A DNA stretch of 64,000 bases from Balneola sp. (lineage in GTDB: Bacteria > Bacteroidota > Rhodothermia > Balneolales > Balneolaceae), in assembly GCA_003712055.1 (NCBI GenBank), contig RHLJ01000003.1, forward strand, positions 124,001-188,000. Direction: 5' to 3'. Shown piece by piece: positions 2 to 62,349 of this stretch. The notes under the pieces are model-generated. The model did no database searches. It was not told the origin of the DNA and saw nothing but the letters and a program-made list of their open reading frames with translations. How positions within the stretch are numbered: position 1 is the first letter of the stretch; every line of letters starts with the position of its first letter. The translations under genes were made by a program, and so were the position numbers.

Positions 2-760
2 AAAAATCTTGCCAGAATTGAACGCTACAGTGGTCCGACAAATGTAACTCGTATTAATCAGGAAAGGGTTACTGAAATCCGAACGGAGTTAGATGGCATT
101 GATCTAAAAACGGCATCTACTCAAGCCAGAGAAATTCTGGACACTATAGAATGGCCGGATGGATATCGTTATGAGCTTGCAGGCTCAGCAGAAGAGCAAG
201 CAGAGTCGTTTAATTTCCTCATGATTGCTTTCCTGATCGCAGGTATTCTTACCTATATGGTAATGGCTTCCCAATTTGAAAGCCTTCTTGAGCCTTTCAT
301 CATATTCTTTACCATTCCGCTTGCACTGTCTGGGGTACTGCTTGTTCTTTGGGTAACTGGAACGAGTATAAGTGTTACCTCCATGGTGGGATTGATATTA
401 CTCTCCGGTATTGTAGTGAACAATGGGATTGTAATGATTGACTATATCAAAATTCTTCAAGCTCGTGGTAAAGATCGCAAAGAAGCCATTGTAACTGGTG
501 CTACCCGAAGGTTACGCCCTATATTAATGACAGCCTTCACAACCATTCTATCGATGGTACCACTAGCACTTGAGCTTGGAGAAGGATCTGAAACTTGGAG
601 CCCTATGGCCAGAACAGTAATTGGCGGATTAAGTATGTCCACCATTCTCATGCTTTTTGTAGTTCCCTGTATCTACAATGTAATTAACAAAGCAGTATCA
701 AGCCTTGGCTTTGATGCTGTACACAAAGTTGACCCCCTAGCTGAAACGGAGCCAGTATGA
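2..760 (+). CDS. RND efflux permease, C-terminal part (gene starts before the window)
   Basis: This is the last 252 residues of a resistance-nodulation-division inner-membrane permease of the HAE1/AcrB type, which exports hydrophobic compounds or drugs using the proton gradient. The reading frame is open from base 2, so the gene begins upstream of the window. The visible part holds the end of the periplasmic docking region and the last five or so membrane helices. It includes the helix motif GIVVNNGIVMIDYI and the conserved TRRLRPILMTAFTT segment. The stop overlaps the start of the next permease by 4 nt (ATGA), so the two are almost certainly cotranscribed and translationally coupled. A paired arrangement like this suggests a heteromeric pump, as in MdtBC. 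The membrane fusion protein would be expected upstream, outside the window. The family call is firm; the substrate is unknown. Confidence 0.93.
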   Translation, partial: KNLARIERYSGPTNVTRINQERVTEIRTELDGIDLKTASTQAREILDTIEWPDGYRYELAGSAEEQAESFNFLMIAFLIAGILTYMVMASQFESLLEPFIIFFTIPLALSGVLLVLWVTGTSISVTSMVGLILLSGIVVNNGIVMIDYIKILQARGKDRKEAIVTGATRRLRPILMTAFTTILSMVPLALELGEGSETWSPMARTVIGGLSMSTILMLFVVPCIYNVINKAVSSLGFDAVHKVDPLAETEPV

Positions 761-46200: not shown

Positions 46201-46405
46201 GTTTGAGGTGCCCCGCGCAGGCCGGGTTTCCCTGGAGGTCTTTAACCTGGTGGGGCAGAAAGTAGCCCAGCTGGTGGACGAACAAAAGCCGGCAGGTCGC
46301 TATGAGGTGACCTTTGATGCTTCGGCTCTCTCCAGTGGGGTGTATGTGTACCGGCTTACCACGGGCGGACAACAATTAACCCGAAAGATGACCCTGATTA
46401 AATAA
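43283..46405 (+). CDS. FG-GAP repeat (beta-propeller) protein with T9SS sorting domain, copy 1
   Basis: 1040-aa surface protein. A long pre-signal segment (1-67) ends in a hydrophobic core and cleavage-like site ASAQ (A86), so the signal region is unusually extended. Seven integrin-alpha-like FG-GAP repeats (about 90-570), each with a GD-x-NGD-x-x-D calcium loop and xIxGAP end, should fold as a seven-bladed propeller. A middle domain follows (about 580-780, ITGDEGFRTLAAPSNGTVFDELLGGFWTQGF...), then a Ser/Ala-rich linker. The type A sorting domain ([20 protein letters not shown] ... SGVYVYRLTTGGQQLTRKMTLIK) ends it. The 3' half is markedly more GC-rich than neighbouring genes and is nearly identical to the next paralogue. 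Probable role is adhesion or binding at the surface. Confidence 0.88.
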   Translation: MNVIKQNTFHSPLVTESNRKMRSLYKWLSRVAGLRTCWVEGIDEHNQPLWGFIKRLTRHKFAVFSRRLVLTSLLLSPLLVSPQASAQTSFELSEVNGINGAIFNGLDDGQKAGKATAFGDINGDGIDDLVIGAPLDYYGGEIGEVYVVFGSSSGFSSSTELSSLDGTTGFTLNGINYRDRTGYSIATGDINGDGMDDVIIGAPEADPDDKSSAGETYVVFGQSSFSGSSLIELSSLDGSNGFTLYGINTSDLSGFAVASGDINGDGITDVIIGAPVADTDDNNSAGETYVVFGSTTAFTSSIELSGLDGSAGFTIHGVSDNKSGWGVAAGDINGDSYDDIIIGAPDTDPGIIDAGGVYVLFGQSAFASSVDLSSLDSSTGFTLLGTDQNNSTGKKLSAGDINGDGFDDLIIGTASANPNGNNSGSTYVVFGQSTAFASSIELSGLDGSTGFAVYGIDAQDRSGYGVATGDVNGDGIFDVIIGAPGADANGDYTGESYVIFGDTASFDAFIQLSSLDGSIGFALNGPNTYEYSGTSVATGDFNGDGIDDIAIGGEGYYNDANPSGAIVFFNSISQAITGDEGFRTLAAPSNGTVFDELLGGFWTQGFTNSDDNTDPTPTANVWTWDQDTQEWASLSDQTTDNLSAGNGFLFYIFSDDNWVEDGDAGFPKYISANQYGGDGSVNSGSVNPVSDLADSDFFFAGNPYFYPIDWDLLTKSGLSETVYIYDDANSTWQTWNGSTGNITDGEIGAFQGFFIEGFGGSGSLTIEEADITSNSVSLLKTVDTEPKALKIHAEAGSFSADAWLSFQQGGELGRDAFDGLSLTPLSSSYLKLATHASNNEELQINALPLDYEQELRVPLDLSGMGAASQAEVTFEGLEQFEDWTITLEDLETEEVVEVNQEPLTLAIRSIQAKEAGTVPASLATPKAKADGHRFELVLTPVIGVNTQPDPSLPEQITLAQNYPNPFNPGTNILFEVPRAGRVSLEVFNLVGQKVAQLVDEQKPAGRYEVTFDASALSSGVYVYRLTTGGQQLTRKMTLIK

Positions 46406-46777
46406 GACCACGTAACTTTGTCATTTCGAACCTGCTTGTGTCGGGAGACAAGCAGGGTGAGAAATCTAAAAATCGCTTCTAACGTCAATGGTTAGATTTC
46501 TCGCTTCGCTCGAAATGGCAAAAGCAATATTAATTCACCATCAGATATATAAGGGGCCATCCCGACAGCTGTCGGGAGAAGGTAGGCACCCTCGCTGAGA
46601 TTGCTTCTGCTGGCCTTCGCCAGAATCGCAATGACATTGATTAAATAACTAGGATAAATAACAGGTGATACGTGGGCAACCCTCACCTATCACTGGTTAC
46701 CTATCGCCGGAAGGCATGTATACCTGCAAGAAACTGAGAGATAGAAGCAGCGCATAGGCGCTCAAGAACCTCCATGA
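46406..46777. repeat. Intergenic region of palindromic interspersed repeats
   Basis: Between the two FG-GAP genes lies a compound palindrome. gtcatttcga (46420-46429) pairs with tcgaaatggc (46510-46519) with one mismatch. Inside it cctgcttgt (46431-46439) pairs with acaagcagg (46448-46456), and gagaaatctaa (46459-46469) with ttagatttctc (46492-46502). A perfect 16-bp palindrome cccgacagctgtcggg follows at 46561-46576. A second repeat type (46591-46637, ctcgctgagattgcttct...) recurs at 50041-50087. No coding gene is supported here. Confidence 0.65.
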
Positions 46778-46840
46778 ATGTCCGGTTTGTTAGTGTTTTT
46801 GTCCGCTCTGTAATAGCTTTTGTCCGATTTGTTAGTGCTC
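46778..46840 (+). repeat. Three 21-bp direct repeats upstream of FG-GAP gene 2
   Basis: GTCC occurs at 46780, 46801 and 46822, again spaced exactly 21 bp, with flanking TTTTTGTCCGatTTG-type sequence as before gene 1. The last unit is 66 bp before ATG 46888. The array is in frame with the gene and open, so it mimics coding sequence (a 7-residue-period peptide), but it is the counterpart of the non-coding array at 43179-43241. Confidence 0.7.
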
Positions 46841-46887
46841 TTACCCCCAACTTGTGGATACTTAAAAATATTCTCGAGGAAAAAATA

Positions 46888-49800
46888 ATGAAAGAGATAG
46901 AAAACCGTCCATTAGTGGTTACGGAACCCCACCGCAAAGTACGCTCATTATATAGATGGCTTTCCAGGGTAACCGGCCTGGAAGCATGCTGGATAGAGGG
47001 GAACGATGACCATAACCAACCGTTATGGGGCTTTATAAAGCGGTTAACCAGGCATAAGTTTGCGGTATTCAGCCGAAGGCTAGCTCTTGCTTCCCTGTTG
47101 CTCTCCCCCCTGTTGGTATCCCCCCAGGCTTCGGCGCAAACGTCCTTTGAACTGTCGGAGCTTAATGGGATTAATGGAACCCTTTTTAATGGGGTAAGTA
47201 GCGGCGACTACACAGGCAACGCTTTAGGAATCGGCGATATCAACGGAGACGGGATCGGTGATCTGATTATTGCCGCACCACGTGCCGCTCCGAATGGTAA
47301 CAGCAATGCAGGAAAAACCTACGTAGTATTTGGCCAGTCCACGACCTTTGGCTCTTCTTTCGAACTAAGCTCCTTAGATGGCGGTAATGGTTTTACACTT
47401 AACGGGATTGATGCAGGCGATAACACCGGTCAAGCCATCGCCGTGGGTGATGTTAATGGAGATGGTATTGACGATATGATTATAGGGGCAAATGGTGGGG
47501 CCCCGAATGGTTCCTATTCCGGGGAAATCTATGTGGTTTTTGGGCAGAGCAGCTTTAGCGGATCTTCGTTGATCGAACTAAGCTCCTTAGATGGCAGTAA
47601 TGGCTTTACCCTGAATGGGATAGATGCATACGATGACGCAGGTCTTGCCCTTGCCTCCGGAGACATCAATGGCGATGGGATCGGTGATGTGATTATTGGC
47701 GCACACCGTGCGGATCCGAATGATAACAGCGAGGCAGGGGAAGCCTATGTGGTATTTGGTCAAAGCCCAGCCTTTGCTTCTTCCTTCGAACTCAGCTCCT
47801 TAGATGGAAGCAACGGTTTTACCCTCAATGGGATTGATGCAGACGATAGAAGCGGTAATAGGGTAGCTACGGGTGATATCAACGGAGATGGCATTACCGA
47901 CGTGATTATCGGCGCTCAGTATGCGGATCCTAATGCTAACAGCGAGGCAGGGGAAAGCTATGTGGTCTTCGGCCAAACCACGACCTTTGGCTCTTCCTTC
48001 GAACTCAGCTCCTTAGATGGAAGTAATGGCTTTACCCTCAATGGGATTGACGCAGACGATCGAAGCGGACGCAGCTTGGCCTCCGGAGATATCAACGGAG
48101 ATGGCATTGCCGACGTAATTATCGGCGCAGTCTTTGCGGATCCTAATGGTAATAGCAGGGCAGGGGAAAGCTATGTGGTCTTTGGCCAAAGTAGCTTTTC
48201 AGGGTCTTCTTCCATCGATTTATCCTCCCTGGATGGAACTACCGGCTTTATCCTGAATGGGATTGACGAAAACAGTCTTAGTGGTAGGGCGGTAACAGCC
48301 GGCGATGTGAATGGAGATGGGATTGGGGACGTACTTGTTGGCGCTCCTTACGCAACTGGTGGTAGTACTTATTCTGGTCAGAGTTATGTCATTTTTGGGA
48401 AAACGGCCTCTTTTGATTCTTCCATTGAATTATCCTCCTTGGACGGGGATACCGGCTTTGCGCTCACTGGAACTGATTTTCTCGAATTATCCGGTGCCTC
48501 TGTAGCTGCCGGAGACCTCAATGGGGATGGCATGGACGATATCGCTATTGGAGCTATGAGCTTTCTCGAAAACGGTGAGGCAGCTGTTTTTTTCAACCGC
48601 ATCCCCCAGGCCATCACCGGGGAGGAGGGCTTCCGCACCCTGGCCGCTCCCAGCAATGGCACCGTGTTTGATGAGCTTCTCGGAGGCTTCTGGACCCAGG
48701 GATTTACCGACTCTGATGGTCCCTCAGGCGATGATAATGTATGGACCTGGGACCAGGGCACTCAGGGCTGGACCAGCCTTTCCGATCAAACCACCGACAA
48801 CCTCTCGGCAGGCAACGGCTTCCTGCTCTACCTGTTTAGTGACGATGATTTTGATGGCTCTGCGGAGGGTTTCCCTAAATACATTTCTGCTAACCAGTAC
48901 GGCGGGGATGGCAGCGTCAACTCCGGCAGCGTGAACCCCGTTAGTGACCTGGCCGACTCCGACTTCTTCTTTGCCGGTAACCCCTACTTCTACCCCATCG
49001 ACTGGGACCTGCTTACCAAATCCGGGCTCTCCGAAACCGTGTATATCTACGATGATGCCAACGCTAACTGGCAGAGCTGGAACGGCTCGTCAGGGAATAT
49101 TACCGACGGGGAAATTGCCGCTTTCCAGGGCTTCTTTATCCAGGGCTCCGGGGGCAGCGGCTCGCTGACTATCGAAGAGGCCGATACCTTGCTTACCACG
49201 GTGAGTTTACTAAAGAGCGTGGACACCGAGCCCAAAGCGCTCAAGATCCACGCGGAAGCAGGTAGCTTTTCTTCCGACGCCTGGCTTTCCTTCCAGCAAG
49301 GGGGGGAACTAGGACGGGACGCCTTCGACGGGCTTTCTTTAATACCCCTGGCTTCCTCCTATCTGCGCCTGGCTACCATTATAGACAACCAGGACCAGCT
49401 CCAGATCAATGCGCTGCCGGTAGATTATGGGCAAGAACTCCGGTTCCCCCTTGACCTGTCCGGGATTGTAGATTCCTCCTTTGCCCAGGTAAGCTTCGAG
49501 GGCCTGCAGGACTTTGGCGACTGGGAGATTTCTATTGTGGACCTGGAGACCGAAGACGTCGTTGAGCTTTCCCAGGGCGACACCCTCTCCCTGGCCATTC
49601 GCAGTGTTCAGGCTAAAGCCGTGGGGGCGCCCGCTTCCCTGGCTGCCCCTAAAGCAAAGGCTGACGGGCACCGCTTTGAACTTGTCCTTACTCCGGTAAT
49701 TGGAGTAAATACACAACCCGACCCAAGCCTGCCGGAGCAAATTACCCTTGCGCAGAACTATCCGAACCCCTTCAACCCTGGTACGAATATTCTGTTTGAG

Positions 49801-49998
49801 GTGCCCCGCGCAGGCCGGGTTTCCCTGGAGGTCTTTAACCTGGTGGGGCAAAAGGTAGCCCAGCTGGTGGATGAGCAGAAGCCCGCAGGCCGCTATGAAG
49901 TCAGCTTCGATGCTTCCGCACTTTCCAGTGGGGTGTATGTGTACCGGCTTACCACGGGCGGACAACAATTAACCCGAAAGATGACGCTAATTAAATAA
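46888..49998 (+). CDS. FG-GAP repeat (beta-propeller) protein with T9SS sorting domain, copy 2
   Basis: 1036-aa paralogue of the preceding gene. ATG 46888 was chosen because it aligns with the start of copy 1. The 38-codon upstream extension would translate the 21-bp repeat array. The same long pre-signal segment (LYRWLSRVTGLEACWIEGNDDHNQPLWGF...) and ASAQ cleavage site (A83) appear. Seven FG-GAP blades follow (GDINGDGIGDLIIAAP, GDVNGDGIDDMIIGAN and so on), then the conserved middle domain and the type A sorting domain. About 205 bp near the 3' end (49646-49850) match copy 1 (46053-46257) without differences by eye, pointing to recent duplication or gene conversion, while the propeller repeats differ more. 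A surface binding role is inferred. Confidence 0.88.
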   Translation: MKEIENRPLVVTEPHRKVRSLYRWLSRVTGLEACWIEGNDDHNQPLWGFIKRLTRHKFAVFSRRLALASLLLSPLLVSPQASAQTSFELSELNGINGTLFNGVSSGDYTGNALGIGDINGDGIGDLIIAAPRAAPNGNSNAGKTYVVFGQSTTFGSSFELSSLDGGNGFTLNGIDAGDNTGQAIAVGDVNGDGIDDMIIGANGGAPNGSYSGEIYVVFGQSSFSGSSLIELSSLDGSNGFTLNGIDAYDDAGLALASGDINGDGIGDVIIGAHRADPNDNSEAGEAYVVFGQSPAFASSFELSSLDGSNGFTLNGIDADDRSGNRVATGDINGDGITDVIIGAQYADPNANSEAGESYVVFGQTTTFGSSFELSSLDGSNGFTLNGIDADDRSGRSLASGDINGDGIADVIIGAVFADPNGNSRAGESYVVFGQSSFSGSSSIDLSSLDGTTGFILNGIDENSLSGRAVTAGDVNGDGIGDVLVGAPYATGGSTYSGQSYVIFGKTASFDSSIELSSLDGDTGFALTGTDFLELSGASVAAGDLNGDGMDDIAIGAMSFLENGEAAVFFNRIPQAITGEEGFRTLAAPSNGTVFDELLGGFWTQGFTDSDGPSGDDNVWTWDQGTQGWTSLSDQTTDNLSAGNGFLLYLFSDDDFDGSAEGFPKYISANQYGGDGSVNSGSVNPVSDLADSDFFFAGNPYFYPIDWDLLTKSGLSETVYIYDDANANWQSWNGSSGNITDGEIAAFQGFFIQGSGGSGSLTIEEADTLLTTVSLLKSVDTEPKALKIHAEAGSFSSDAWLSFQQGGELGRDAFDGLSLIPLASSYLRLATIIDNQDQLQINALPVDYGQELRFPLDLSGIVDSSFAQVSFEGLQDFGDWEISIVDLETEDVVELSQGDTLSLAIRSVQAKAVGAPASLAAPKAKADGHRFELVLTPVIGVNTQPDPSLPEQITLAQNYPNPFNPGTNILFEVPRAGRVSLEVFNLVGQKVAQLVDEQKPAGRYEVSFDASALSSGVYVYRLTTGGQQLTRKMTLIK

Positions 49999-50314
49999 GC
50001 AGTCATTGCGAGGGGGCCTGCGGAGCGCGACCGCGGCAACCTCGCTGAGATTGCTTCTCCTGGCCTTGGCCAGGATCGCAAAGACATTAATTCAATAGGC
50101 AATTAGGAATAAAGACTTCCCTATTCCTAATTGAGTTATTCCTGATTCAAAACAGGTAGGTATAAACCTAAACCATTATCCAGTTACATTCTCTTCCGAT
50201 CTCTCTACGATATTTAGGAAAGAGAGCCTAAAAGCCAGGACGAACCCTTTTATTACTTATCCCTGTTAGTTTAACTAGCCAATGTTTTGTACCATTGGCG
50301 CTCAGTAATTGAGC
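49999..50314. repeat. Repeat-rich gap before the MATE gene
   Basis: Just after the stop codon a palindromic interspersed repeat starts with gtcattgcga (50002-50011) and ends with tcgcaaagac near 50075-50084. Its right part matches the element at 46591-46637. A perfect 12-bp inverted repeat caattaggaata/tattcctaattg (50100-50111 and 50122-50133) follows and could end transcription, though no T-run follows. No gene was recognised, and no promoter for the MATE gene could be fixed. Confidence 0.6.
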
Positions 50315-51649
50315 ATGAATAGTATCCCCGACTTTAGAAAAGAAACTTCCCAACTATTTAAAATTGGACTTCCTATAGTAGGCACCCAACTCCTTGGGAT
50401 GGGGCTCAATGTTACCGACACCATTATGGCAGGCAGGCTTAGCGCGGCAGATCTTGCCGGAGTTGCTGTTGGGAATGCACTTTATCTTCCGGTTGCTCTT
50501 TTCTGCATGGCTACTCTGGTTGCTATAAACCCTATTGTATCTCAATTCTTAGGAGCACGCAAATTCAATGAAATTGGGAAGAGCGCACGACAAATGCTTT
50601 GGCTGGTTGGCTTCTTAACCATACCGGCAATATTCATTATCCGCGATATGGACATACTTATGCATTGGGTGGGGGTAGATCCGGAAATTATTCCTTTGGC
50701 GGATGGGTATCTGAAGGCGGTATCCTGGGGCATGCCCGGACTTCTGATCTTCATGGGACTTAGATATTTCAGCGAAGGATTGGCCATCACCAAACCAGCA
50801 ATGTATATGGCGCTGGGAATGCTGTTACTTAACATTCCCGCTGATTACATACTTATGTATGGCAAGTTTGGCTTTCCTCAAATGGGAGCTATAGGTACCG
50901 GATATGCCACCACTATTGTGCAATTGGTTTTTGGGCTAATCATGATAGCGTTCACTGCTTCCTTTAAACCTTTTCGCCGGTTCAGTATTTATGCAAAAAC
51001 CAGAGGGCCGGAATGGAAATACATCAAAGATTTACTTCATGTTGGTATTCCAAACGGAATCAGCTCTACAATGGAAGTGCTCCTTTTTGCCAGTGTAAGT
51101 GTATTAATGGGTACGCTGAGTGTAACAGCATCTGCTGCCCATCAAATTGCCATAAATATTGCTGCTACCATATTTATGATTCCATTCGGACTTTCGATGG
51201 CTATTTCTCAACGAGTAGGGGTCGCCGTTGGGCAGGGCTCATTGGAAAAAGCCCGATTCCGGGGATTCCTTGGAACAGCAGCTTGTACGGGGATTATGAT
51301 TTTTACCGCAATACTGATCTTCTCTATACCGGAAATGATTGTTGGCATTTACACCGACGCTCCCGAGGTAAAAGCCCTGGCCGTTTCCCTGGTATTTATG
51401 GCAGGATTATTTCAAATATCGGATGGCCTCCAGGTAGGTGGCTTTGGAGCATTACGAGGACTTAAGGATACTAAAGTCCCGATGATATTTAATTTTATAA
51501 GCTACTGGTTGATAGGCTTCTCCGTTGGGTACTACCTCGGTATTCATGGCGGATATGGACCCAAGGGGCTTTGGATTGGGTTGATCTCAGGTCTAACCGT
51601 TGCTGCTATTCTGCATAACACTAGGTTTCATCTGCTTACAAAAAAGTAA
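50315..51649 (+). CDS. MATE-family multidrug/sodium antiporter
   Basis: 444-aa inner-membrane transporter of the multidrug and toxic compound extrusion family (NorM-like). It has about 12 hydrophobic segments in two homologous halves. Conserved segments include LPIVGTQLLGMGLNVTDTIMAGRLSAADLAGVAVGNALY at the N-terminus and GALRGLKDTKVPMIFNFISYWLIG in the second half. An in-frame TTG lies two codons earlier, but ATG 50315 is preferred. Single gene, closed by the hairpin at 51649-51669. Substrates are unknown. Confidence 0.95.
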   Translation: MNSIPDFRKETSQLFKIGLPIVGTQLLGMGLNVTDTIMAGRLSAADLAGVAVGNALYLPVALFCMATLVAINPIVSQFLGARKFNEIGKSARQMLWLVGFLTIPAIFIIRDMDILMHWVGVDPEIIPLADGYLKAVSWGMPGLLIFMGLRYFSEGLAITKPAMYMALGMLLLNIPADYILMYGKFGFPQMGAIGTGYATTIVQLVFGLIMIAFTASFKPFRRFSIYAKTRGPEWKYIKDLLHVGIPNGISSTMEVLLFASVSVLMGTLSVTASAAHQIAINIAATIFMIPFGLSMAISQRVGVAVGQGSLEKARFRGFLGTAACTGIMIFTAILIFSIPEMIVGIYTDAPEVKALAVSLVFMAGLFQISDGLQVGGFGALRGLKDTKVPMIFNFISYWLIGFSVGYYLGIHGGYGPKGLWIGLISGLTVAAILHNTRFHLLTKK

Positions 51650-51680: not shown

Positions 51681-54600
51681 CTACTTAAGTAAGTACAATT
51701 GTTTTGTGGCTGTAAAATCTCCTGAAGTCAGCCTGTACACATACACCCCGCTGGCAAGGTCGGAAGCATTAAATGTTACGGTATATCTGCCTACTTCCTG
51801 GACATCGTTAACCAGCATCCTCACTTTTCTTCCCAGTATGTCAAATACTTCGAGTTTAACCAGACCAGTAGTCGGTATAGCATACTCTATTTGAGTGCTT
51901 GGATTAAAGGGGTTAGGATAATTCTGGGATAAGATGAATTCTACAGGCTGTTCGTCTTGAATCGGTTCCAATTCCTCATAATCTTGTACCTGAACTTTAC
52001 CTCGTGCAAAGTCATCGGAATACGAGGTTTCTACTTCCGCTTTTAACCCTTCAAAATTTGCCTGAACCATCAGCTCAACTCTTACATTTCCTTCTTCTAA
52101 TGTATTCGTGTTTACACTCCAGGATTTCTTTTGTCTGGTTAGCCCTCTTTTTCCATCAATCGTAAACTCCCTTAGTGTTGCAATAAGCTCATTACTAGCA
52201 TCATCAACAAGGTTTATCTGAATAGAAACCCTCTTGTCGCTACCCAAAAACTGTAATGCACTTAATGAATCTCCAAAACTAAACTGCTCATCAAAAGTGA
52301 ACTTGGTATTTTTGGAAATGTGGAAAGGCTCTGTGGTTAGATAGGGCTCAACATCTTCCACACCCTGAAATCCTGGTTGCACCTCATCAAATTCCAACGG
52401 TTCATATTCGGGTAAAGGAATAAATGCTATGGGTTGCCCATCTACATATAATTCCCCTATTCCAATACTAAACCCTGCTGTTCCGGCGGTATCAGAGAGC
52501 ACCAGGCTTCTGCTTTGGGTAGCTGTTAACGGAGCTTGTTTTAGATAACTCCCCAAAGAGTTGGATTGCAACCAGTAATAAGGTTGGCTTTTCGGATAAA
52601 AAGAAAAGGCGTAAATATCATTGTCTGAAGAAGCTCCCGTGAGTTGAAGATCCCACCCTTTTGTATTGAGCGTCTTAAAGGTAGATAAGGCAGACTTCTC
52701 TACGAATTTATTATAGTCTATATAACCCGATTGATCATAAATCTGGCTCCATCCTACATACGCCTCGCTATTATCTGACAGCTTATTCACACTTACGGAG
52801 CGAACATGATGATCGAGATTACTTCGGCTTGTGCATATGCCCCACGGACACGCTGTCAGGGTAGCTACAGTCGCTTTCGTATCATAAGGGCTACCCCAGG
52901 AAGAGTTGGTCGTTATTCCGGATATCCATCCTATAATATGTGTCCCTGTTTGAGTACTAATTATAGACGGCTCTTTATTACGAACTACTGATCCGCTAGA
53001 AACGCGCATTGGAGCTACTGCTACCGTTACCGATGTTGCTCCGGTTATATATCTAATGCTGGCATATTTGATCTCCGTTCCCCAATAATAGGGAGCACCA
53101 GAAATCCCCATATCTTCTTCCCAGGCGATACTTATAAATGTATTATTTGCTGTAGAGCTGGTAATTGATGTAGCCGCGATATTATTAGCACCGGAAGTAC
53201 TGCTTACAGTACCTGAGGTCATGAGGTTTAAATATACATTTGGATAATCAAATTCATAAATCCTGTACTGTATCCCGGAACTTGTACGATAAAGAAGTAC
53301 CAGATCGTCGTCATCTGTCCAGATTACATTAGGTTGGGTATCATAGGAAGCTGATTGTCCGGTAGATATGATCTCATATGGAGCGGCATTTACATAGGTT
53401 CCTGAGCTAGAATTATAGCGGAAGGTTTGTAGCCGTATGTTCGTGCCGTCTTGCCAGGCAGCGACTGTCATATATTGCCATGGCCAGGTTGTAGTGGTGG
53501 GTTTAACGGCAATGGAAGGAGACTTAGTACCATTTCCCATATGCAATTCATTTTGACTCTCGATAAATTCCCAGTTGCCAGAAGGTGCTTTGGCTTCGTA
53601 CCAGGTATTACCCAAGCTTTCATACATCATATGCTCCCAACCATCTAGAGAACGGACAATCTTGCGTTGGTAAGTTTTGAAAGTTCCAGAATCATTAGAC
53701 CGTAGATTACCCTTAAATTCTGCTTTTAGATCAATATCTTGATTTATAATTATACTTCGCTGCTTGTTTTCATTTCCATCACTCCACTTCCAAAAAACCC
53801 AGTCTGTACCTTGCGTTCCATTTGAAACATTCGCATCAATCGTTTTGCTAACTGTATTGTCATAAAAGTCATAGTCATCAAAACTAAAATAACTACTACC
53901 ATCATATGTAACTGTTCCATTCGAAAAAGCACCTCCCTCTAATGAGTTATCAAGTTCCACTCTTCGTGCTGGATCAAATTTTGCCTCTAAAACTTCATCC
54001 TTTGTACCAACTGAGTATTGAATTCTTCTAGTTGCAATTTCAGTTTGAACGTCATTTTCGTCATTCACCCAATGTCTATACTTATTTTTTCCATTAGCCT
54101 CATCTATTAGTTCATATGGAGTTTGTACTTTATTTGTTGTCCCAGTACTCCATTCGAATGTATTAGGAGAATCGTAAGTAGTGATAGTACTACCGCTTAT
54201 TCCATCAACTTTCTGAATAGATCCTATATTAGTTTTCCCATTTACCTGATTTTGTACAGTTACAAATCTAGGGCCAGCTTTTAAGGTATAACCTATTGTT
54301 ACTTCATCTGAGGTAGTTGTAAGAGTAGGAGTCGCTGAAGTAAAAAAACTAGTAGCTGCATCTGCTAAAAAGGGAAGGTCAGCACCAGTAGAAATCTCAG
54401 GAAGGTTTAGAAGTAATGACGTGAAATTAATTGCACCACTTAACCAGTTACTTGTCTGATCGGTAAAGGATGTAGGCGTCAACACTATTTTGTAACCAGT
54501 TCCCTCATTTACTATTGTTACATCTCCATTTACAACTATTACTTGATTACTGAGCCCAGGAAGATCAAAACTGAATGGACCTAATTGAAAATTAGCAATC

Positions 54601-54863
54601 GCTTCTCCACTGAAGGTAACGGAAAAAGAATTTCCTGAGAATAATTCTAACGTTGCGGAAGTAGGCTTGTAGCCATAGTAATTGACTATTGCTTTGCTAC
54701 TTGTTGAACCATAAGAAAAGGCTCTAGCTTCAATCATTTTATCCAGTACTATCTGAAGCGATGTCTTAGAGATTTTAATTTGCACATCATTTGCACTGGA
54801 TGAAATGGTATTGATCAAACCAATTGATACTGTTAACAAACAGATTCTTATTACTCTATTCAT
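51681..54863 (-). CDS. Large secreted protein with T9SS type A sorting domain, unknown function
   Basis: 1060-aa secreted protein, signal peptide about 1-24. The N-terminal domain (about 25-200) is beta-rich. A stretch near 350-395 (DWVFWKWSDGNENKQRSIIINQDIDLKAEF) resembles an InlB B-repeat/Ig-like bacterial repeat. A long beta region with regularly spaced Trp/Asp follows (about 440-780, QPNVIWTDDDDLVLLYRTSS..., ISIAWEEDMG), perhaps a propeller. The sorting domain ([21 protein letters not shown] ... SGVYVYRLTSGDFTATKQLYLLK) ends it. It is the last and largest gene of a four-gene minus-strand cluster and probably its surface-exposed cargo. No catalytic motif was recognised. Confidence 0.82.
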   Translation of the reverse strand: MNRVIRICLLTVSIGLINTISSSANDVQIKISKTSLQIVLDKMIEARAFSYGSTSSKAIVNYYGYKPTSATLELFSGNSFSVTFSGEAIANFQLGPFSFDLPGLSNQVIVVNGDVTIVNEGTGYKIVLTPTSFTDQTSNWLSGAINFTSLLLNLPEISTGADLPFLADAATSFFTSATPTLTTTSDEVTIGYTLKAGPRFVTVQNQVNGKTNIGSIQKVDGISGSTITTYDSPNTFEWSTGTTNKVQTPYELIDEANGKNKYRHWVNDENDVQTEIATRRIQYSVGTKDEVLEAKFDPARRVELDNSLEGGAFSNGTVTYDGSSYFSFDDYDFYDNTVSKTIDANVSNGTQGTDWVFWKWSDGNENKQRSIIINQDIDLKAEFKGNLRSNDSGTFKTYQRKIVRSLDGWEHMMYESLGNTWYEAKAPSGNWEFIESQNELHMGNGTKSPSIAVKPTTTTWPWQYMTVAAWQDGTNIRLQTFRYNSSSGTYVNAAPYEIISTGQSASYDTQPNVIWTDDDDLVLLYRTSSGIQYRIYEFDYPNVYLNLMTSGTVSSTSGANNIAATSITSSTANNTFISIAWEEDMGISGAPYYWGTEIKYASIRYITGATSVTVAVAPMRVSSGSVVRNKEPSIISTQTGTHIIGWISGITTNSSWGSPYDTKATVATLTACPWGICTSRSNLDHHVRSVSVNKLSDNSEAYVGWSQIYDQSGYIDYNKFVEKSALSTFKTLNTKGWDLQLTGASSDNDIYAFSFYPKSQPYYWLQSNSLGSYLKQAPLTATQSRSLVLSDTAGTAGFSIGIGELYVDGQPIAFIPLPEYEPLEFDEVQPGFQGVEDVEPYLTTEPFHISKNTKFTFDEQFSFGDSLSALQFLGSDKRVSIQINLVDDASNELIATLREFTIDGKRGLTRQKKSWSVNTNTLEEGNVRVELMVQANFEGLKAEVETSYSDDFARGKVQVQDYEELEPIQDEQPVEFILSQNYPNPFNPSTQIEYAIPTTGLVKLEVFDILGRKVRMLVNDVQEVGRYTVTFNASDLASGVYVYRLTSGDFTATKQLYLLK

Positions 54864-54884
54864 TATTGCTCTCCTTTAATATTG

Positions 54885-56063
54885 TTAATTTGAAACTCCT
54901 TGCACGACCACATAAACTTGAGAGTTTACTTCGGTCGGAAAAAAAATTTTCCCATTACTGGTTTTAATCATTTTTCGTTGCTGTCCAAATTGGACATCAT
55001 CATTTGGGATACCCGGAATATTCATTCTCTGGAAACTTAGTCCATCCCAATGGTAAAAATTAAACCTTGTCCCATAAATCCAAATATCATTTGGATTAAA
55101 TAAGTCTATTCCTAAGCCCGTACGATTGTTTTGCCTCAGTGGCAATCCCAAGGCTGAAAGATTAGTTGCACTATAACTTAATGATTGACCTTCTGAAGTA
55201 ATTAAAAAAGATTCATTACTTATCAGATATAGATATAATGAATCTGTAGCTGCACACCTGTAGGAATCGACATCTCCTACTCCACTGTTTAGGGGATCTA
55301 ATGCATCTCCTAGCTGCAGATAAATGCCCGTTGTGTCTTGATTGTCGTACAACTTGTACCATTCCTTTCCATCATACTTCCAAAGTTGATTATAATTTGG
55401 CTCACCTGGGACTGATAAGAATCCTCTTATATATATTTCATTTCTGGAGACACCATCTACATCTGTTAGATTGAATTCAGACGGTGCTTTAGAGTAAAGC
55501 CATTCAGAATCATAACCATCTTTGGTATAGATCATACCACTATCTCCAACTGCCAAAAAAAAACCATCTTGATCCGTCCAAACTCCACGAAGCGCTCCTT
55601 TTCTTTCGAACTGGGTACCTTTCCATGCTTTGGTTTGATTATTAAACTCAGCTAATCCTACTTTTTCATCACTTTTATCCCAAAAACCAACTGAGACCAT
55701 GTAGAAGCTATCACCAGTTACATCAACAGAATTATGCTTTATTTCTGAGATAGGAACTTCATCAGGTGACCACCTGATTCCATCCCAATGCAATCCTAAA
55801 TAACCTATAAATTCTCCTTCCTCATCATATTGGAAAATACTTCCCATTACGTACGCATCATCATCAGAGAAAGCCCAGACCCCCCCTACTTCTGACGGCC
55901 ACCAACCTACGGTATCAACTTGCCAGGCGAAATTCCTGTTTCCCGGTTGGAAATCACAATTATTAACACTTTCAGTTCCCGTATTACATGAACTCATCAT
56001 AATTGTGACCAATGAACATGATAGAAAAACCAATTTATAATTATATAGCCTTGATTCTACCAT
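54885..56063 (-). CDS. Lipoprotein with repeated beta/Trp motifs, unknown function
   Basis: 392-aa lipoprotein. The N-terminal signal is short and ends in lipobox MMSSC. Mature sequence has repeated strands with aromatic and Asp/Gly turns (VGWWPSEVGGVWAFSDDDAYVMGSI, GLHWDGIRWSPDEV, LRGVWTDQDGFFLAVGDSGMIYTKDGYDSEWLY), a pattern seen in BNR/photosystem-stability-factor-like propellers. It lies 4 nt after the 225-aa outer-membrane gene and 21 nt before the 1060-aa gene. Function unknown; a surface or periplasmic binding protein is plausible. Confidence 0.72.
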   Translation of the reverse strand: MVESRLYNYKLVFLSCSLVTIMMSSCNTGTESVNNCDFQPGNRNFAWQVDTVGWWPSEVGGVWAFSDDDAYVMGSIFQYDEEGEFIGYLGLHWDGIRWSPDEVPISEIKHNSVDVTGDSFYMVSVGFWDKSDEKVGLAEFNNQTKAWKGTQFERKGALRGVWTDQDGFFLAVGDSGMIYTKDGYDSEWLYSKAPSEFNLTDVDGVSRNEIYIRGFLSVPGEPNYNQLWKYDGKEWYKLYDNQDTTGIYLQLGDALDPLNSGVGDVDSYRCAATDSLYLYLISNESFLITSEGQSLSYSATNLSALGLPLRQNNRTGLGIDLFNPNDIWIYGTRFNFYHWDGLSFQRMNIPGIPNDDVQFGQQRKMIKTSNGKIFFPTEVNSQVYVVVQGVSN

Positions 56064-56067
56064 TTAC

Positions 56068-56745
56068 TTATCCGAAAATTTTTTTGGATTGGGGTAAGTA
56101 ATACCTTAATCCAAATGAATAACTGTAGCCACCAAAATCTCCTATATACACAATGAAATTATCGTTTGTGGTATTATACTGGTTATCAAAAATTAGAGCG
56201 AAAGCAGAGCCACGTATTTTCTTTTCAACCCCTATACCTCCAAAAAATCCAAGCCACCCATCCCTATTGTCATAAAAAGGCTCCTCATTTTCTCTTTCAA
56301 TGAGGTTCTTACTTTTTATTAAAGTAATTCCTCCCTTAAGCTGTAAAGAGAAATATTTTGATAATAGAAAAGATCTTTGGAATCCTATATTACTTCTTCT
56401 CATTTGAAAATCCGAAGTACCATTTGCTTCAGTGCTCATTTCTATTACCCTTCCTCCAGTATCAAAAGAAGTGATTTTTTCGAAATTAATGCCATTCGTT
56501 TCGAAATACATCAACTGAATATATATATAGGTAACCCTTCCCACAGGAAATCCAACCGAACCTCCATATTGAAACAAAGCTTGACTTCCATAAGCTTGTT
56601 TTTGTAGATCTCGAGAAAAAAAATATACACCTGAACTTCCCGTAATAAAGAATTTACCTAGCCCTTTATCTTGTGCATTTAATTTTTCAAAAAAGAATAC
56701 AGAAACAACAATACAACAGTAAATTAAGATGATAGGCTTTTTCAT
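56068..56745 (-). CDS. Predicted outer-membrane beta-barrel protein, unknown function
   Basis: 225-aa protein with a signal peptide (about 1-24, ending LNAQ). Alternating strand patterns are typical of small outer-membrane barrels (GKFFITGSSGVYFFSRD, GGSVGFPVGRVTYIYIQLMYFETNG, YSFGLRYYLP). The aromatic-rich last strand is near the C-terminus. It lies 24 nt after the first gene of the cluster. No named family was recognised. Confidence 0.7.
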   Translation of the reverse strand: MKKPIILIYCCIVVSVFFFEKLNAQDKGLGKFFITGSSGVYFFSRDLQKQAYGSQALFQYGGSVGFPVGRVTYIYIQLMYFETNGINFEKITSFDTGGRVIEMSTEANGTSDFQMRRSNIGFQRSFLLSKYFSLQLKGGITLIKSKNLIERENEEPFYDNRDGWLGFFGGIGVEKKIRGSAFALIFDNQYNTTNDNFIVYIGDFGGYSYSFGLRYYLPQSKKIFG

Positions 56746-56769
56746 AAATTCATCACTTACTATGAGATA

Positions 56770-57735
56770 TTATTCTCCCCAAACTTCTGTTATACCCGTA
56801 AAATTTGTCCAGGTATCTGTATTTGAAGTTGTAAATGATTGAACAGTCCAAACCGTTTCAATAAACTGTCTCATTATCTTTAGCTTTGAAAGTAACTGAC
56901 CACTTGCACTACCTCCTGTAAAACTATAAGTAGCAACATATTTGTTCAATGCCTGATCAAATACTGCGGTTACTGATACATTTAATGAGCTTGCCTGCCC
57001 TGCAGTAGTAGTATTTTGTATCGATTTTAGATCAAATTTATTATTAGAGAGTACTCTTATATGATATGAAGTAGATCCAGGTCTTCTCCATTGGAAACTG
57101 TATTCAGGGGGATTTGCATAAATTTCAGGAGATATTGTCAAAATTATTTCTCCTTCTCCTATTGCAAAAGATATTTCAGGCAATCCATAAAATCCTAAAT
57201 CGAAAGTATCCGTCCATCTGATAGTGGTTTGTGTAAGTACTTCTCCTTGAAAAATTATCCAGTCAATATCGTCAAGTATATCTTCAAGAACATCCCTTAT
57301 CCTTTGATCTGGAATAAATGGATTGTTGTCTATAGCTGCTTCAAGGTTGTTATACTCTGTTCTGACATCCTCTATTACACTATCAGGATTAATTACTACA
57401 GCAGGGATAAAAAGTTCAGGGGTAATAGATGTAACATCATCATAAATTGTACTACCTCCTGCAGTAGCATTAATATCAAGTGTAAGAATAACTCTAAAAG
57501 TATTTTCTGTTAAATCAACAATAGGTCTATTTAAAGTAATATTGTAGCTGAGCCCTTGGTAAGTGCCTGTCCAATTACTTGTAATTGAACTCCATTGATC
57601 TGCTATAAACCTATTTATTCCTGTACTAGTTATCGAAAAATCTATAGGAACTGGAGTTGTGTTTGGCTGGGCTTTTGAGGTACCAACAAAGAGCAATAAC
57701 AGGGTTAGTGTTAGAATACTTTTTTTCATGTTCAT
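56770..57735 (-). CDS. Secreted protein, unknown function, first gene of cluster
   Basis: 321-aa protein with signal peptide (MKKSILTLTLLLLFVGTSKAQ). The N-terminal part (IDFSITSTGINRFIADQWSSITSNWTGTYQGLSYNITLNRPIVDLTENTFRVILTLDINA) reads as long amphipathic strands and resembles the N-terminal domain of the 1060-aa protein in the same cluster, so the two may share a fold. A possible lipid- or ligand-binding tubular fold is speculative. It has no sorting domain, so it is probably periplasmic. The 198-nt upstream gap is shared with the divergent polyketide synthase. Confidence 0.68.
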   Translation of the reverse strand: MNMKKSILTLTLLLLFVGTSKAQPNTTPVPIDFSITSTGINRFIADQWSSITSNWTGTYQGLSYNITLNRPIVDLTENTFRVILTLDINATAGGSTIYDDVTSITPELFIPAVVINPDSVIEDVRTEYNNLEAAIDNNPFIPDQRIRDVLEDILDDIDWIIFQGEVLTQTTIRWTDTFDLGFYGLPEISFAIGEGEIILTISPEIYANPPEYSFQWRRPGSTSYHIRVLSNNKFDLKSIQNTTTAGQASSLNVSVTAVFDQALNKYVATYSFTGGSASGQLLSKLKIMRQFIETVWTVQSFTTSNTDTWTNFTGITEVWGE

Positions 57736-57933: not shown

Positions 57934-59034
57934 ATGCCTGTGTTTATTCATGATATTGTTTCTGCAAATCCCGAGATGTCTTTTGAGCAGAACCTGGCCC
58001 GTGATATTCTTAAAGAAAAGCTTGGTCAGAACCGCAAAGTTAGGGCCATCCTTCATGCCATTTATGGCTATTCGGGAATAGAAAAAAGGCATACCGTTCT
58101 GGATGACGCACTGGATGAATCGCCCAACTCCTTTTTCAACAGGGCATTTAGTGACGAGGTTGAAGGTCCTACTACGGAAGAGAGAAATGAAGTTTATACT
58201 GAAGCGTCATCAAAGTTATTTCTTGAAATAGGAAATAAGCTTTTAGAAAGAAATACATCTTTTTCTACTTCCGAAATTACGCATGTCATTACCGTTTCGT
58301 GCACAGGCTTCTATGCCCCGGGACCCGACTTTGAAATCGTAAAAGGTCTTGGACTCAAACCCTCTACTCAACGTTTTCATCTTGGCTTTATGGGATGTTA
58401 TGCAGCTTTTCCCGCCCTTAAAATGGCTGAAGCATTTTGCAAAGCAGATCCAGATGCTACCGTGATGGTAATCTGCACTGAGCTATGTACACTTCACTTT
58501 CAAAACAAAACCGATCTTGATAATCTGGTTGCAGCTTCTGTATTTGCAGATGGTTCTGCCGGAGTATTAGTTTCATCCAAAGAACCAGCCGGGAAAGGAT
58601 ACCAGATGGATGGCTTCGCCTCTTCTCTGGCTTATGAAGGCGAAAAGGATATGGCATGGACTATTGGTGATACCGGTTTCGACATGATCCTATCCTCTTA
58701 TGTTCCTGATATCATCGAATCAAACCTTGGCGGTATTATCACTCCGCTCTTAAATGAGTTCTCCATTACCAAAAAAGATGTGGAAACCTGGGCGATTCAT
58801 CCCGGAGGAAGAGCCATCATTGATAAAGTGGTTGAAGCAATGCAATTGAAGGAAGAACAGGTTCAATCTTCAAGAAAGGTGCTGGCAAACTATGGGAATA
58901 TGAGTAGCGCCACAGTCCTTTTTGTCCTAAAGGATATCTTGAGCAGATGCCCGGAAAATGGAAGCCGGGTATTACCCATTGCGTTTGGTCCGGGTCTGAC
59001 GATTGAATCCGGTTTGTTTAGAGTTGTATCCTGA
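57934..59034 (+). CDS. Type III polyketide synthase
   Basis: 366-aa homodimeric chalcone/stilbene-synthase-like enzyme that condenses an acyl-CoA starter with malonyl-CoA units. The catalytic triad is visible as Cys155 (LGFMGCYAAF), His289 (WAIHPGGRAI) and Asn322 (LANYGNMSSAT), with spacing matching chalcone synthase. Other family marks are VSCTGFYAPGPDF and CTELCTLHF. Its stop is one base before the start of a methyltransferase, which overlaps a flavin monooxygenase. That gene set matches operons making methylated, hydroxylated alkylresorcinols or alkylpyrones/quinones in other bacteria (srsABC of Streptomyces griseus). A long-chain fatty acyl starter is plausible but not shown. Confidence 0.95.
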   Translation: MPVFIHDIVSANPEMSFEQNLARDILKEKLGQNRKVRAILHAIYGYSGIEKRHTVLDDALDESPNSFFNRAFSDEVEGPTTEERNEVYTEASSKLFLEIGNKLLERNTSFSTSEITHVITVSCTGFYAPGPDFEIVKGLGLKPSTQRFHLGFMGCYAAFPALKMAEAFCKADPDATVMVICTELCTLHFQNKTDLDNLVAASVFADGSAGVLVSSKEPAGKGYQMDGFASSLAYEGEKDMAWTIGDTGFDMILSSYVPDIIESNLGGIITPLLNEFSITKKDVETWAIHPGGRAIIDKVVEAMQLKEEQVQSSRKVLANYGNMSSATVLFVLKDILSRCPENGSRVLPIAFGPGLTIESGLFRVVS

Positions 59035-59035
59035 C

Positions 59036-59743
59036 ATGCCTTTTTTTCTTCGTCATCGCCAGCCTGATATTATTGAAGAAATGGATAAGGAAAACTGTGA
59101 TCAGGCAAAACTCAATAAAACCTATCATCACTTTGCTACGATTAATGAGTTTCTCTCCAATTGGAGAAATATCTATTCAAAGCAATTGAAACCTCTCATG
59201 AGTGAACCGAATCAATCATACAGCTTGTTGGATATTGGTTTTGGTGGAGGGGATATTCCTATAGCTATTTCAAAATGGGCAAATCAAGATGGGATCAAAC
59301 TCGAAATAACTGCTATTGAAACGGATAAACGAGCGCTCGATTTTGTAGCTAAACATTCGGAAGGATCAGAAGTCAGCTTTGTGTATAGTAGTTCCTCGCA
59401 GTTGGTAAGTAAGACAATGCAGTATGATTTTGTGATTTCAAACAACCTGCTCCACCACCTAACAGCATCAGAGACAGATCAGCTACTTTCTGATTCTATA
59501 TCACTTTCTAAAAAACGAGTAATATTTAATGACATCAGACGGAGTGATATTGGTTATGCATTATATAGTGCCTATTCCAGAATATTTTTTAGTGATTCCT
59601 TCGTGACTATTGATGGGCTTGCCTCCATAAAACGTAGCTATACAAAGAAAGAATTAGCGGAGGCAGTACCTTCCGGTTGGAAGGTAGAAACTCAATACCC
59701 ATTCCGTCTGTTATTAATTCATGATAAAGAGTATGAAAACTGA
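59036..59743 (+). CDS. Class I SAM-dependent methyltransferase
   Basis: 235-aa methyltransferase with motif I LLDIGFGGGDIPIAI (about 62-76), an acidic motif II end (ITAIETDKRALDFV) and a VISNNLLHHL segment. ATG 59036, one base after the polyketide synthase stop, is preferred over an in-frame TTG 11 codons upstream inside that gene. Its 3' end overlaps the FAD monooxygenase start by 11 nt. It likely methylates the polyketide product, but whether on O or C is unknown. Confidence 0.88.
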   Translation: MPFFLRHRQPDIIEEMDKENCDQAKLNKTYHHFATINEFLSNWRNIYSKQLKPLMSEPNQSYSLLDIGFGGGDIPIAISKWANQDGIKLEITAIETDKRALDFVAKHSEGSEVSFVYSSSSQLVSKTMQYDFVISNNLLHHLTASETDQLLSDSISLSKKRVIFNDIRRSDIGYALYSAYSRIFFSDSFVTIDGLASIKRSYTKKELAEAVPSGWKVETQYPFRLLLIHDKEYEN

Positions 59744-60890
59744 AGATGTTGTAATAGTTGGTGGTGGGCCGGTTGGTCTTTTTATGGGATTATGTTTACA
59801 CCACCTTGGTATACCATGCACCATATTTGAAAAACGAAGCAAGATTATCTCTGATACCCGATCGCTTGGTATCCACCCCGTTTCGCTCGAGCTTTTTGAA
59901 AAAATGGGAATAGCCGAAGATTTCGTTAATTCGGGCATACAGGTTAAACGGGGAATTGCGCACAATGGAGAAAAGGAGTTAGGCTCTATTACGTTCGAAG
60001 GCTGTCCGCCTCCCTTTAATTATGTATTAATCAATCCCCAGTTCGAAACCGAGCGAATACTCCGGGAAAAATTTATGGAGAGATGTCCTGACGCCTTGAT
60101 AAAGGGCGCCGAAGTCATAGCTCTAAACCAGGAATTTGACCATATTTCTATTGATATAGCTATGGGTGGAAAAACGGAAAGTTTAGAAATCGGCTATGTA
60201 ATTGGATGTGATGGCAAGGATAGTTTTGTACGAGAAGCTTCTGAAATCCCATTTCATGGAAAAAGATATCCGGATACCTACATAATGGGCGATTTTAACG
60301 ATTCTACCTCATTTGGAAATGATGGTGTCATTTATCTCACTAAACACGGATTAGTAGAATCCTTTCCAATTCCGGATAAGAAAAGAAGATGGGTAGTAAA
60401 AACGGATGAATATATCTCTGAACCTACCCCGGAATTCATCTCTCAGATTATAGAGCAAAGAACGGGTAATCAGATTGATCATCAATCCAATTCAATGATG
60501 AGCGCTTTTGGGGTTCAGCATTATCTTGCCGAACGTTTTGTTAAAGACCGGGTGATTTTGGTCGGCGATGCTGCTCATATAGTAAGTCCTATTGGAGGGC
60601 AAGGTATGAATCTGGGCTGGCTGGATGCCTGGCATTTAGCCAATTTAATGTCCTTTTGCAGAGGAATTTCTAAAGACCTGCCTATTGCTGATTTGTTTGT
60701 ATATGAAAGCAAGCAGAAACCCATTGCAAAAAAAGTGGCACGCCGGGCAGAATTAAATATGCGAATGGGTAGAAAGAATAAAATTCCCGGCTTTAAGAAA
60801 GCAATTGCTACAGTCGTGTCTGGCCCTGCCTTCCAAAATAAAACTGCCCAGCTTTTTACCATGCGCGGTTTGGAGAGCTGGTGGATTTGA
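59733..60890 (+). CDS. FAD-dependent monooxygenase (PHBH-like flavoprotein hydroxylase)
   Basis: 385-aa class A flavin monooxygenase. The N-terminal dinucleotide-binding VIVGGGPVGLFMGL, the mid DG motif region (VIGCDGKDSFVREASE) and the FAD-binding RVILVGDAAHIVSPIGGQGMNLGWLDAWHLANLM identify it. Members hydroxylate aromatic rings with NAD(P)H and oxygen. ATG 59733 is preferred because an AAAGAG lies upstream; an ATG at 59721 is possible. It is the last gene of the polyketide operon and would hydroxylate or oxidise the ring to a quinone. Confidence 0.9.
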   Translation: MKTEDVVIVGGGPVGLFMGLCLHHLGIPCTIFEKRSKIISDTRSLGIHPVSLELFEKMGIAEDFVNSGIQVKRGIAHNGEKELGSITFEGCPPPFNYVLINPQFETERILREKFMERCPDALIKGAEVIALNQEFDHISIDIAMGGKTESLEIGYVIGCDGKDSFVREASEIPFHGKRYPDTYIMGDFNDSTSFGNDGVIYLTKHGLVESFPIPDKKRRWVVKTDEYISEPTPEFISQIIEQRTGNQIDHQSNSMMSAFGVQHYLAERFVKDRVILVGDAAHIVSPIGGQGMNLGWLDAWHLANLMSFCRGISKDLPIADLFVYESKQKPIAKKVARRAELNMRMGRKNKIPGFKKAIATVVSGPAFQNKTAQLFTMRGLESWWI

Positions 60891-60891
60891 T

Positions 60892-60929
60892 GATAACTAC
60901 TAGCAGACAGCTGTCAGCTAACAGTTATC
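60892..60929. terminator. Hairpin between convergent monooxygenase and transporter genes
   Basis: gataact (60892-60898) pairs with agttatc (60923-60929) and encloses a near-perfect 20-bp palindrome tagcagacagctgtcagcta (60901-60920). The stem overlaps the transporter stop codon. A run of A follows on the plus strand (T on the minus side upstream), so it is not a textbook terminator for either gene, but its position suggests that use. Confidence 0.5.
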
Positions 60930-62349
60930 AAAAAAAATACCCCTCAAAAAAGTAGCTGTACAGAGCAATAATTAGAATACACAGGATATTTAAAATAATC
61001 CCGACTCTGGCCATCTCTCCCATTTTTATATGACCACTTGAAAATACAATGGCATTGGGTGGAGTAGAGATCGGAAACATAAACGCACAACTTGCTCCAA
61101 TGGTAAGCGGAATTGCGAGTTGTAATTCACTTAATCCAAAGCTTTGGGCTATCACAAAGGAAACCGGAATAAATACCGCAACCAAAGCAACATTACTCAT
61201 TATTTCAGTAAGGAAGACGGCAAAAGCACAAACCACTAAAATGACAAGTAGTGGATTTGGAGCAATGCTTGAACTTATCCACTCTCCCAATAACCCAACA
61301 ATATTGGTGACTTCCATCCCCTTGGCCAAAGAAATACCTCCTCCAAAGAGTAGTAAAATATCCCAGGGAAGCCTCTTTGTATCTTCCCAAACCAACAAGG
61401 GTTCACTTTTATTTCCAGATGGTAAAATGAACAGCATGACGGAAGCAAAAATGGCAATACTCGTATCATTTAACGCCTCCAGACCCGGTACCTTAGTGAG
61501 CTGAGAACGAGTAATCCAAAAGAGAGCAGTTACCGCAGTAAGAACCAACACATTACGTTCGCTTTTTGTCATAGACCCAAGAAGTGTTAGTTCCTTTCCT
61601 ATCAACTCTTTGATCCCTTTCAATTCTTTGATCTTGACCGGATAAACCACCTTGGTATTAATGAGATAAACTACGGTAAATAAAACGATCACCAAAGGAG
61701 CAGCAAAAAAGAACCAGCTTGCAAAATCTAAAGAGGGCATTCCAGCTTCATCGACAAGACTGGCTAGTACAAGGTTTGGGGGAGTTCCAATAAGCGTGGT
61801 AATTCCTCCTATGTTCGCAGCAAAGGCAATCCCGAGCATAAGAGTAAGAGCGAAATTATGCGCCTCTTTATCGGCGTTAAGCTTATCCTTGAGTAGCGCC
61901 ACCACCGATAAACCAATCGGGAGCATCATTACTGTAGTGGCCGTATTGCTAATCCACATCGAAAGAAGAGCAGTAGCAAGCATACACCCCAAAATTACCC
62001 GGGATGGTTTCTCTCCAGCAGTCTTCATAATGTTCAATGCAATCCTTTTGTGGAGATTCCACTTCTCTATTGCCAATCCAATCACGAAGCCACCAAAGAA
62101 AAGATAAATCACCGGATTGGCGTAATTAATGGTAGTATCTCGTAATCCCATTACTCCCGTCAATGGAAAAAGAATAATTGGAAGAAGGGCGGTTATCCCA
62201 ATGGGAACTACACTAGTGATCCACCAACTTAACATCCAGGCTACTATGCCGAGCATTAATACCTGCTGATTATGAAAACCAGCTAAACTGCTAACAGTAA
62301 AAAATAGGACCGGGCCTAGCAGAAGTTTAAAAATCCTATTTGCTTCCAT
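60928..62349 (-). CDS. DASS (SLC13) family sodium/anion symporter
   Basis: 473-aa inner-membrane transporter of the divalent anion:sodium symporter family, which takes up dicarboxylates such as succinate, or sulfate/phosphate-type anions. It has about 11-12 hydrophobic segments. The two SNT/TP family sites are SNTATTVMMLPIGLSVV and the later NVALVAVFIP segment, with GTPPNLVLASLVDEAG and TPPNAIVFSSGHIKMGEM. It lies 11 nt after the sensor kinase gene on the same strand and may be under the same control. The exact substrate is not certain. Confidence 0.93.
   Translation of the reverse strand: MEANRIFKLLLGPVLFFTVSSLAGFHNQQVLMLGIVAWMLSWWITSVVPIGITALLPIILFPLTGVMGLRDTTINYANPVIYLFFGGFVIGLAIEKWNLHKRIALNIMKTAGEKPSRVILGCMLATALLSMWISNTATTVMMLPIGLSVVALLKDKLNADKEAHNFALTLMLGIAFAANIGGITTLIGTPPNLVLASLVDEAGMPSLDFASWFFFAAPLVIVLFTVVYLINTKVVYPVKIKELKGIKELIGKELTLLGSMTKSERNVLVLTAVTALFWITRSQLTKVPGLEALNDTSIAIFASVMLFILPSGNKSEPLLVWEDTKRLPWDILLLFGGGISLAKGMEVTNIVGLLGEWISSSIAPNPLLVILVVCAFAVFLTEIMSNVALVAVFIPVSFVIAQSFGLSELQLAIPLTIGASCAFMFPISTPPNAIVFSSGHIKMGEMARVGIILNILCILIIALYSYFFEGYFF

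Follow-up and report, generated by a model that had tools for sequence, protein, structure and literature searches.

Three adjoining genes in a Balneolaceae genome raise the question of what is made by a compact operon for a type III polyketide synthase (PKS), a methyltransferase, and a flavin hydroxylase, and whether this operon belongs to the phenolic-lipid operons typified by srsABC of Streptomyces griseus, as the sequence-only reading had suggested. The window, i.e., the whole 64,000-nucleotide stretch of DNA analysed, encodes on its forward strand, in this order, the PKS (366 aa, 57934–59034), a class I SAM-dependent methyltransferase (235 aa, 59036–59743), and a PHBH-type (class A) FAD aromatic hydroxylase (385 aa, 59733–60890; 389 aa with the alternative start at 59721). 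The TGA codon of the PKS gene ends at 59034 and the methyltransferase ATG begins at 59036, leaving a gap of 1 nt, and the methyltransferase and hydroxylase genes overlap by 11 nt or, with the alternative start, by 23 nt. The trio is preceded by a divergent intergenic region of about 200 bp and followed by a convergent gene for a DASS symporter (60928–62349), which together mark it as a unit of its own. A scan for sigma-70 promoters around the operon returned fewer sites than expected by chance and gives no information on how the operon is transcribed. The compact architecture that had been noted, with its 1-nt and overlapping junctions, thus holds both in the coordinates and in the gene order of the family, and since this order recurs nearly family-wide with near-zero spacing, the arrangement is no product of chance. 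The Pfam domain scan likewise bears out the identities assigned to the methyltransferase and the class A hydroxylase.

The PKS matches the Pfam families Chal_sti_synt_N and Chal_sti_synt_C at 92 and 91 bits, and its thiolase-fold triad (Cys155, His289, Asn322), described before as intact, is in fact invariant in 65 aligned homologues. Trp242 aligns with Trp230 of Mycobacterium tuberculosis Pks11, a position equated with Trp281 of ArsB, which is required for resorcinol formation (PMC5916927; PMC9927152). In the phylogenetic tree of 65 rows, the window enzyme falls into a clade of 38 (support 98/98) comprising Balneolales, the Rhodothermia family f10, Deinococcus, Microbacterium, and MAGs labelled Trueperaceae or Gemmatimonadales, and all 38 members carry Trp at the ArsB-281 position. 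A Trp at the same position is also found in Pks11, in an ICMT-associated Bacillus PKS, and in a Rhizobium PKS; owing to its occurrence in the latter two, Trp242 is consistent with resorcinol formation but not proof of it. The PKSs of planctomycete hid-like, alphaproteobacterial, and Bacteroidota operons form separate clades, and the ICMT-associated enzymes of Streptomyces (L155) and Bacillus (L160) lie far from the window clade. Placing the Streptomyces enzyme within the window clade by constraint was rejected (p-AU 1.1e-6); in this tree it stands in for SrsA, which like PkqA and ArsB is not among the rows, and it was chosen for the ICMT gene in its operon. The check proposed earlier, a phylogeny of the PKS, therefore separates the enzyme from the ICMT-associated clade, and the clustering with a clade of different product type that had been considered was not seen. 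No characterised member of the window clade was found in the literature, and an open-literature search for Balneolaceae together with type III polyketides returned nothing.

The methyltransferase matches the Pfam families Methyltransf_25 and Methyltransf_11 and exceeds the cut-off of the NCBIfam equivalog PRK06202 (266 bits; cut-off 243). Only class I families were matched in the domain scan and an ICMT domain was absent; a search for ICMT in the genome from which the window derives, run without a positive control, was empty. The protein aligns with the operon enzymes of planctomycetes, Algoriphagus, alphaproteobacteria, and Deinococcus, with 15 invariant columns, and the invariant residues shared with two planctomycete enzymes (L108, L165) follow the pattern MD...N...D.G..D...HH...D..R, which places it, as judged from sequence, in the methyltransferase family of the planctomycete hid-like operons. 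The closest structural matches of its AlphaFold model (pLDDT 93.5) are NovO and CouO (Z about 19), C-methyltransferases of aminocoumarin rings, with plantazolicin methyltransferases tying within 1 of these scores. Published work describes HidA as an O-methyltransferase and the enzyme of Gimesia as probably a C-methyltransferase (PMC10896814).

In the hydroxylase, which matches FAD_binding_3 with 182 bits, the class A motifs GxGxxG, DG, and GD are kept (GGGPVG, CDGK, GDAAH) and the fold is PHBH-like. Its model (pLDDT 90.4) matches phenol hydroxylases; the best TM-score was obtained with PnpA (0.89/0.86), with PHBH and UbiH close behind. The tree of FAD enzymes from the compared operons splits into two halves (support 100/100), one of PHBH type with the enzymes of the window, other Balneolaceae, Deinococcus, and Microbacterium, and one of KxCGE/KxCGG type with those of planctomycetes, Algoriphagus, Psychrobacter, alphaproteobacteria, and Streptomyces. 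BLAST scores between the two sets are near background: the window hydroxylase reaches 27–28 bits against a planctomycete FAD protein, whereas the planctomycete proteins score 181–188 bits among themselves. PKS clade and type of oxidoreductase thus go together closely, though with an exception, since the PKS of a Bacteroidetes MAG (L096) lies outside the window clade and yet has a PHBH-type neighbour.

How the operon relates to known systems follows from these three proteins. The srsABC operon of S. griseus and pkqABC of Mycobacterium smegmatis have the same order of PKS, methyltransferase, and FAD enzyme as the window, and their proposed chemistry is alike, in that an alkylresorcinol is methylated and then oxidised to a quinone. 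An srs-like operon of Streptomyces leads to respiratory polyketide quinones (PMC9927152), and the M. smegmatis pkq operon is cited as doing so too (in PMC9927152 and PMC5916927). The srsB-type methyltransferases, however, are ICMT-family proteins (PMC6669644) and unrelated to the class I enzyme of the window, and the ICMT-containing Streptomyces operon L155 combines a distant PKS with a KxCGE-type FAD enzyme. Orthology with srsABC is ruled out by the methyltransferase family and by the PKS tree, in which L155 represents SrsA. What survives of the comparison with srsABC is the logic of the pathway, for which published operons with this layout (PMC10896814; PMC9927152) and the Trp typical of many resorcinol-forming enzymes provide good support, whereas the kinship fails on ICMT and the PKS clade. 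The hidABC operon of picocyanobacteria, which is responsible for hierridin, and the planctomycete operon likewise combine a PKS and an FAD oxidoreductase with a class I methyltransferase from the family to which the window enzyme belongs (PMC10896814; PMC8086630). The hid order is methyltransferase, oxidoreductase, PKS, unlike that of the window, and some cyanobacteria show the alternative order hidC-hidA-hidB (PMC8086630). With the planctomycete operons standing in for HidABC itself, the oxidoreductase is a KxCGG-type FAD enzyme instead of a PHBH-type hydroxylase, and the PKS, 36–38% identical to that of the window, belongs to a separate clade. The trios of Deinococcus and Microbacterium agree with the window in order, methyltransferase family, PHBH-type subfamily, and PKS clade (98/98), and differ in their chromosomal or plasmid context and in a PKS that is about 40–50% identical to the window's. 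By the tests run, the operon thus works like srsABC and hidABC, yet is a member of neither; the operon kind of PKS, methyltransferase, and FAD enzyme was known already, and this version is set apart by a PKS clade of its own and the PHBH-type flavoenzyme. In a further operon of the general kind, on plasmid pKN1 of Sphingobium yanoikuyae (L162), genes for a carrier protein and a ketosynthase precede the PKS, methyltransferase, and FAD genes, which suggests an ACP-bound starter.

Among Balneolaceae genomes of at least 90% completeness, 63 of 66 contain the full trio, so that the survey of relatives proposed earlier showed near-complete retention and not the loss of one gene in most relatives that would have spoken against the reading. 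Two genomes lack all three genes (G037, G069); a weak PKS match in the latter (E 3e-4 over 83 residues) was not counted as a PKS. The apparent partial losses in G061 and G090 are contig ends, the contig of G061 breaking off about 500 bases after the PKS gene; in G006 the hydroxylase sits on another contig, and G053 (64% complete) has an unrelated ATPase-like ORF at the PKS position. The same-genus relatives of the window's source, itself a Balneolaceae genome, are Balneolaceae MAGs. Outside the family, the trio was found in three other Balneolales families, in the Rhodothermia family f10, on Deinococcus plasmid records including one of Deinococcus radiodurans (L154, 5992–8951), in Microbacterium, and in a small number of MAGs that bear the labels Trueperaceae or Gemmatimonadales. 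The PKS on the Gemmatimonadales MAG contig (L074) nests inside the Balneolales family f5; this trio and the similar ones of the Trueperaceae MAGs (L043, L044) may reflect either misbinning of the contigs or gene transfer. In other Rhodothermia families, a related PKS gene occurs with no matching methyltransferase or hydroxylase gene nearby (L147–L153); in L149, L151, and L153 its neighbour looks, by eye, like a gene for a MazG-type pyrophosphohydrolase. One genome with a full trio also encodes another PKS, a more divergent copy that lacks the partners (L139, G150:C5).

In most of 21 Balneolaceae loci compared for synteny, the trio is part of a conserved block (window 33701–63918; loci L112–L131). 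A first part on one strand holds a tRNA cluster, VTT/DedA, ispF, ispD, and queA; a second part comprises a small gene, LytR_C, rsfS, a 2-hydroxyacid dehydrogenase gene, a gene for a HAMP/HisKA sensor kinase of about 1280 aa, a gene for a MATE-family exporter, and the trio; and a third part on the opposite strand encodes a GAF-HisKA_2 kinase and aconitase. An rRNA operon, considered for the conserved contig breaks 10–13 kb upstream of the PKS gene in relatives, was dismissed because Rfam showed a conserved tRNA cluster near these breaks instead. That the site is fixed points to inheritance from the ancestor of the family more than to repeated gain. In the genome of the window, about 6 kb of other genes lie between the MATE gene (50309–51649, forward strand) and the PKS gene, and two insertions of secreted-protein genes part the kinase, MATE, and PKS genes; the segments 43283–49998 and 51681–57735 hold secreted FG-GAP and Por_Secre_tail proteins (about 1040–1074 aa) with their neighbours, apparently inserted. 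At the edge of the window, a 179-aa ORF (221–760) that matches only the C-terminal end of AcrB-type RND pumps (profile 866–1020) directly precedes a full RND gene (757–3885) and is possibly part of a frameshifted or split gene.

Taken together, we consider it probable that the operon forms a decorated long-chain phenol, namely a methylated and hydroxylated 5-alkylresorcinol that ends as a membrane hydroquinone or quinone. The PKS would load a fatty acyl-CoA and add three malonyl-CoA units, and C2-C7 aldol condensation would close the tetraketide to a 5-alkylresorcinol; the methyltransferase would place a methyl group on the ring, either O- or C-linked, and the flavoenzyme, with NAD(P)H and O2, would hydroxylate the ring to an alkylhydroquinone that passes into the alkylbenzoquinone. 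The order of methylation and hydroxylation, the methyl position, and the role of the product are, in this scheme, our inference. The final oxidation step may differ from that of the other operon types compared, because the PHBH-type hydroxylase is unlike their oxidoreductases. The product would either remain in the membrane, as a redox-active quinone or phenolic lipid, or the MATE protein encoded in the same block would flip or export it. An experimental precedent comes from planctomycetes, where PKSs of the same three-gene operon kind gave 5-pentadecyl- and heptadecylresorcinols, which were methylated when the partners were co-expressed (PMC10896814).

A different ring closure, by lactonisation or C6-C1 condensation, would turn the PKS into a source of alkyl-alpha-pyrones or acylphloroglucinols, which the partner enzymes would then decorate. 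The Trp marker is shared with a Bacillus BpsA-like PKS and with Pks11, which was deposited as an alpha-pyrone synthase, and MMAR_2193 was assayed with both pyrones and resorcinols (PMC8730385); a PHBH-type phenol hydroxylase, however, is a better fit for a phenolic than for a pyrone ring, and three PKSs of planctomycete origin, encoded in such operons or in a two-gene version, yielded alkylresorcinols in Corynebacterium glutamicum (PMC10896814), so that we regard pyrone-type products as unlikely. Another rival reading starts from the MATE gene, which is present in 19 of the 21 loci, in most relatives on the same strand some 40–140 bp upstream of the PKS gene; judging from synteny, its protein is a possible exporter of the product, which might then be a secreted signal, allelochemical, or antibiotic and not a membrane lipid. 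We find this quite unlikely: in the genome of the window, 6 kb with genes on the opposite strand lie between the MATE and PKS genes, neither of the two Deinococcus trios inspected adjoins a MATE gene, the substrates of MATE proteins are many, and near-universal retention would be unusual for an antibiotic. Such PKSs are often annotated as chalcone synthases (CHS), with flavonoids as products, and flavonoid synthesis has been argued for a Deinococcus isolate, where the forward primer for the assigned CHS gene encodes MSSVTV (PMC10386165). The PKS is indeed homologous to plant chalcone and stilbene synthases, yet these are distant relatives only, the PKS tree and the operon partners match bacterial phenolic-lipid operons, and no phenylpropanoid genes were seen adjoining the operon, which makes a flavonoid highly improbable. 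Deinococcus PKSs in trios carry the motif MSSATV, close to the primer-encoded one, and the CHS gene of Deinococcus sp. 43 (PMC10386165) may be a trio PKS like that of D. radiodurans (L154).

The reading as a decorated alkylresorcinol leaves the role of the product in the cell to be considered. The genome contains menD, the classical menaquinone gene (409 bits); a second quinone is therefore not required, the operon is not needed as a menaquinone substitute, and its product, if it acts as a quinone, would do so alongside menaquinone. That the whole of the Balneolales and D. radiodurans maintain a standing second, polyketide-derived pool of respiratory quinones, made with a PHBH-type hydroxylase in place of the enzyme of the Streptomyces/Mycobacterium route, is an extension that we consider unlikely. 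Since look-alike operons of PKS, methyltransferase, and oxidase use non-homologous parts, a label assigned automatically, e.g., 'alkylresorcinol (srs)', can be misleading. Phenolic-lipid operons are usually regarded as accessory metabolism; retention of the trio at one site in nearly the whole family suggests a basic role in the Balneolaceae, e.g., as a membrane or respiratory lipid, and both product and role are testable in D. radiodurans, which is genetically tractable and has a homologous trio (M7777_RS15120–15130 in NZ_OV024759.1) with the same order and enzyme types.
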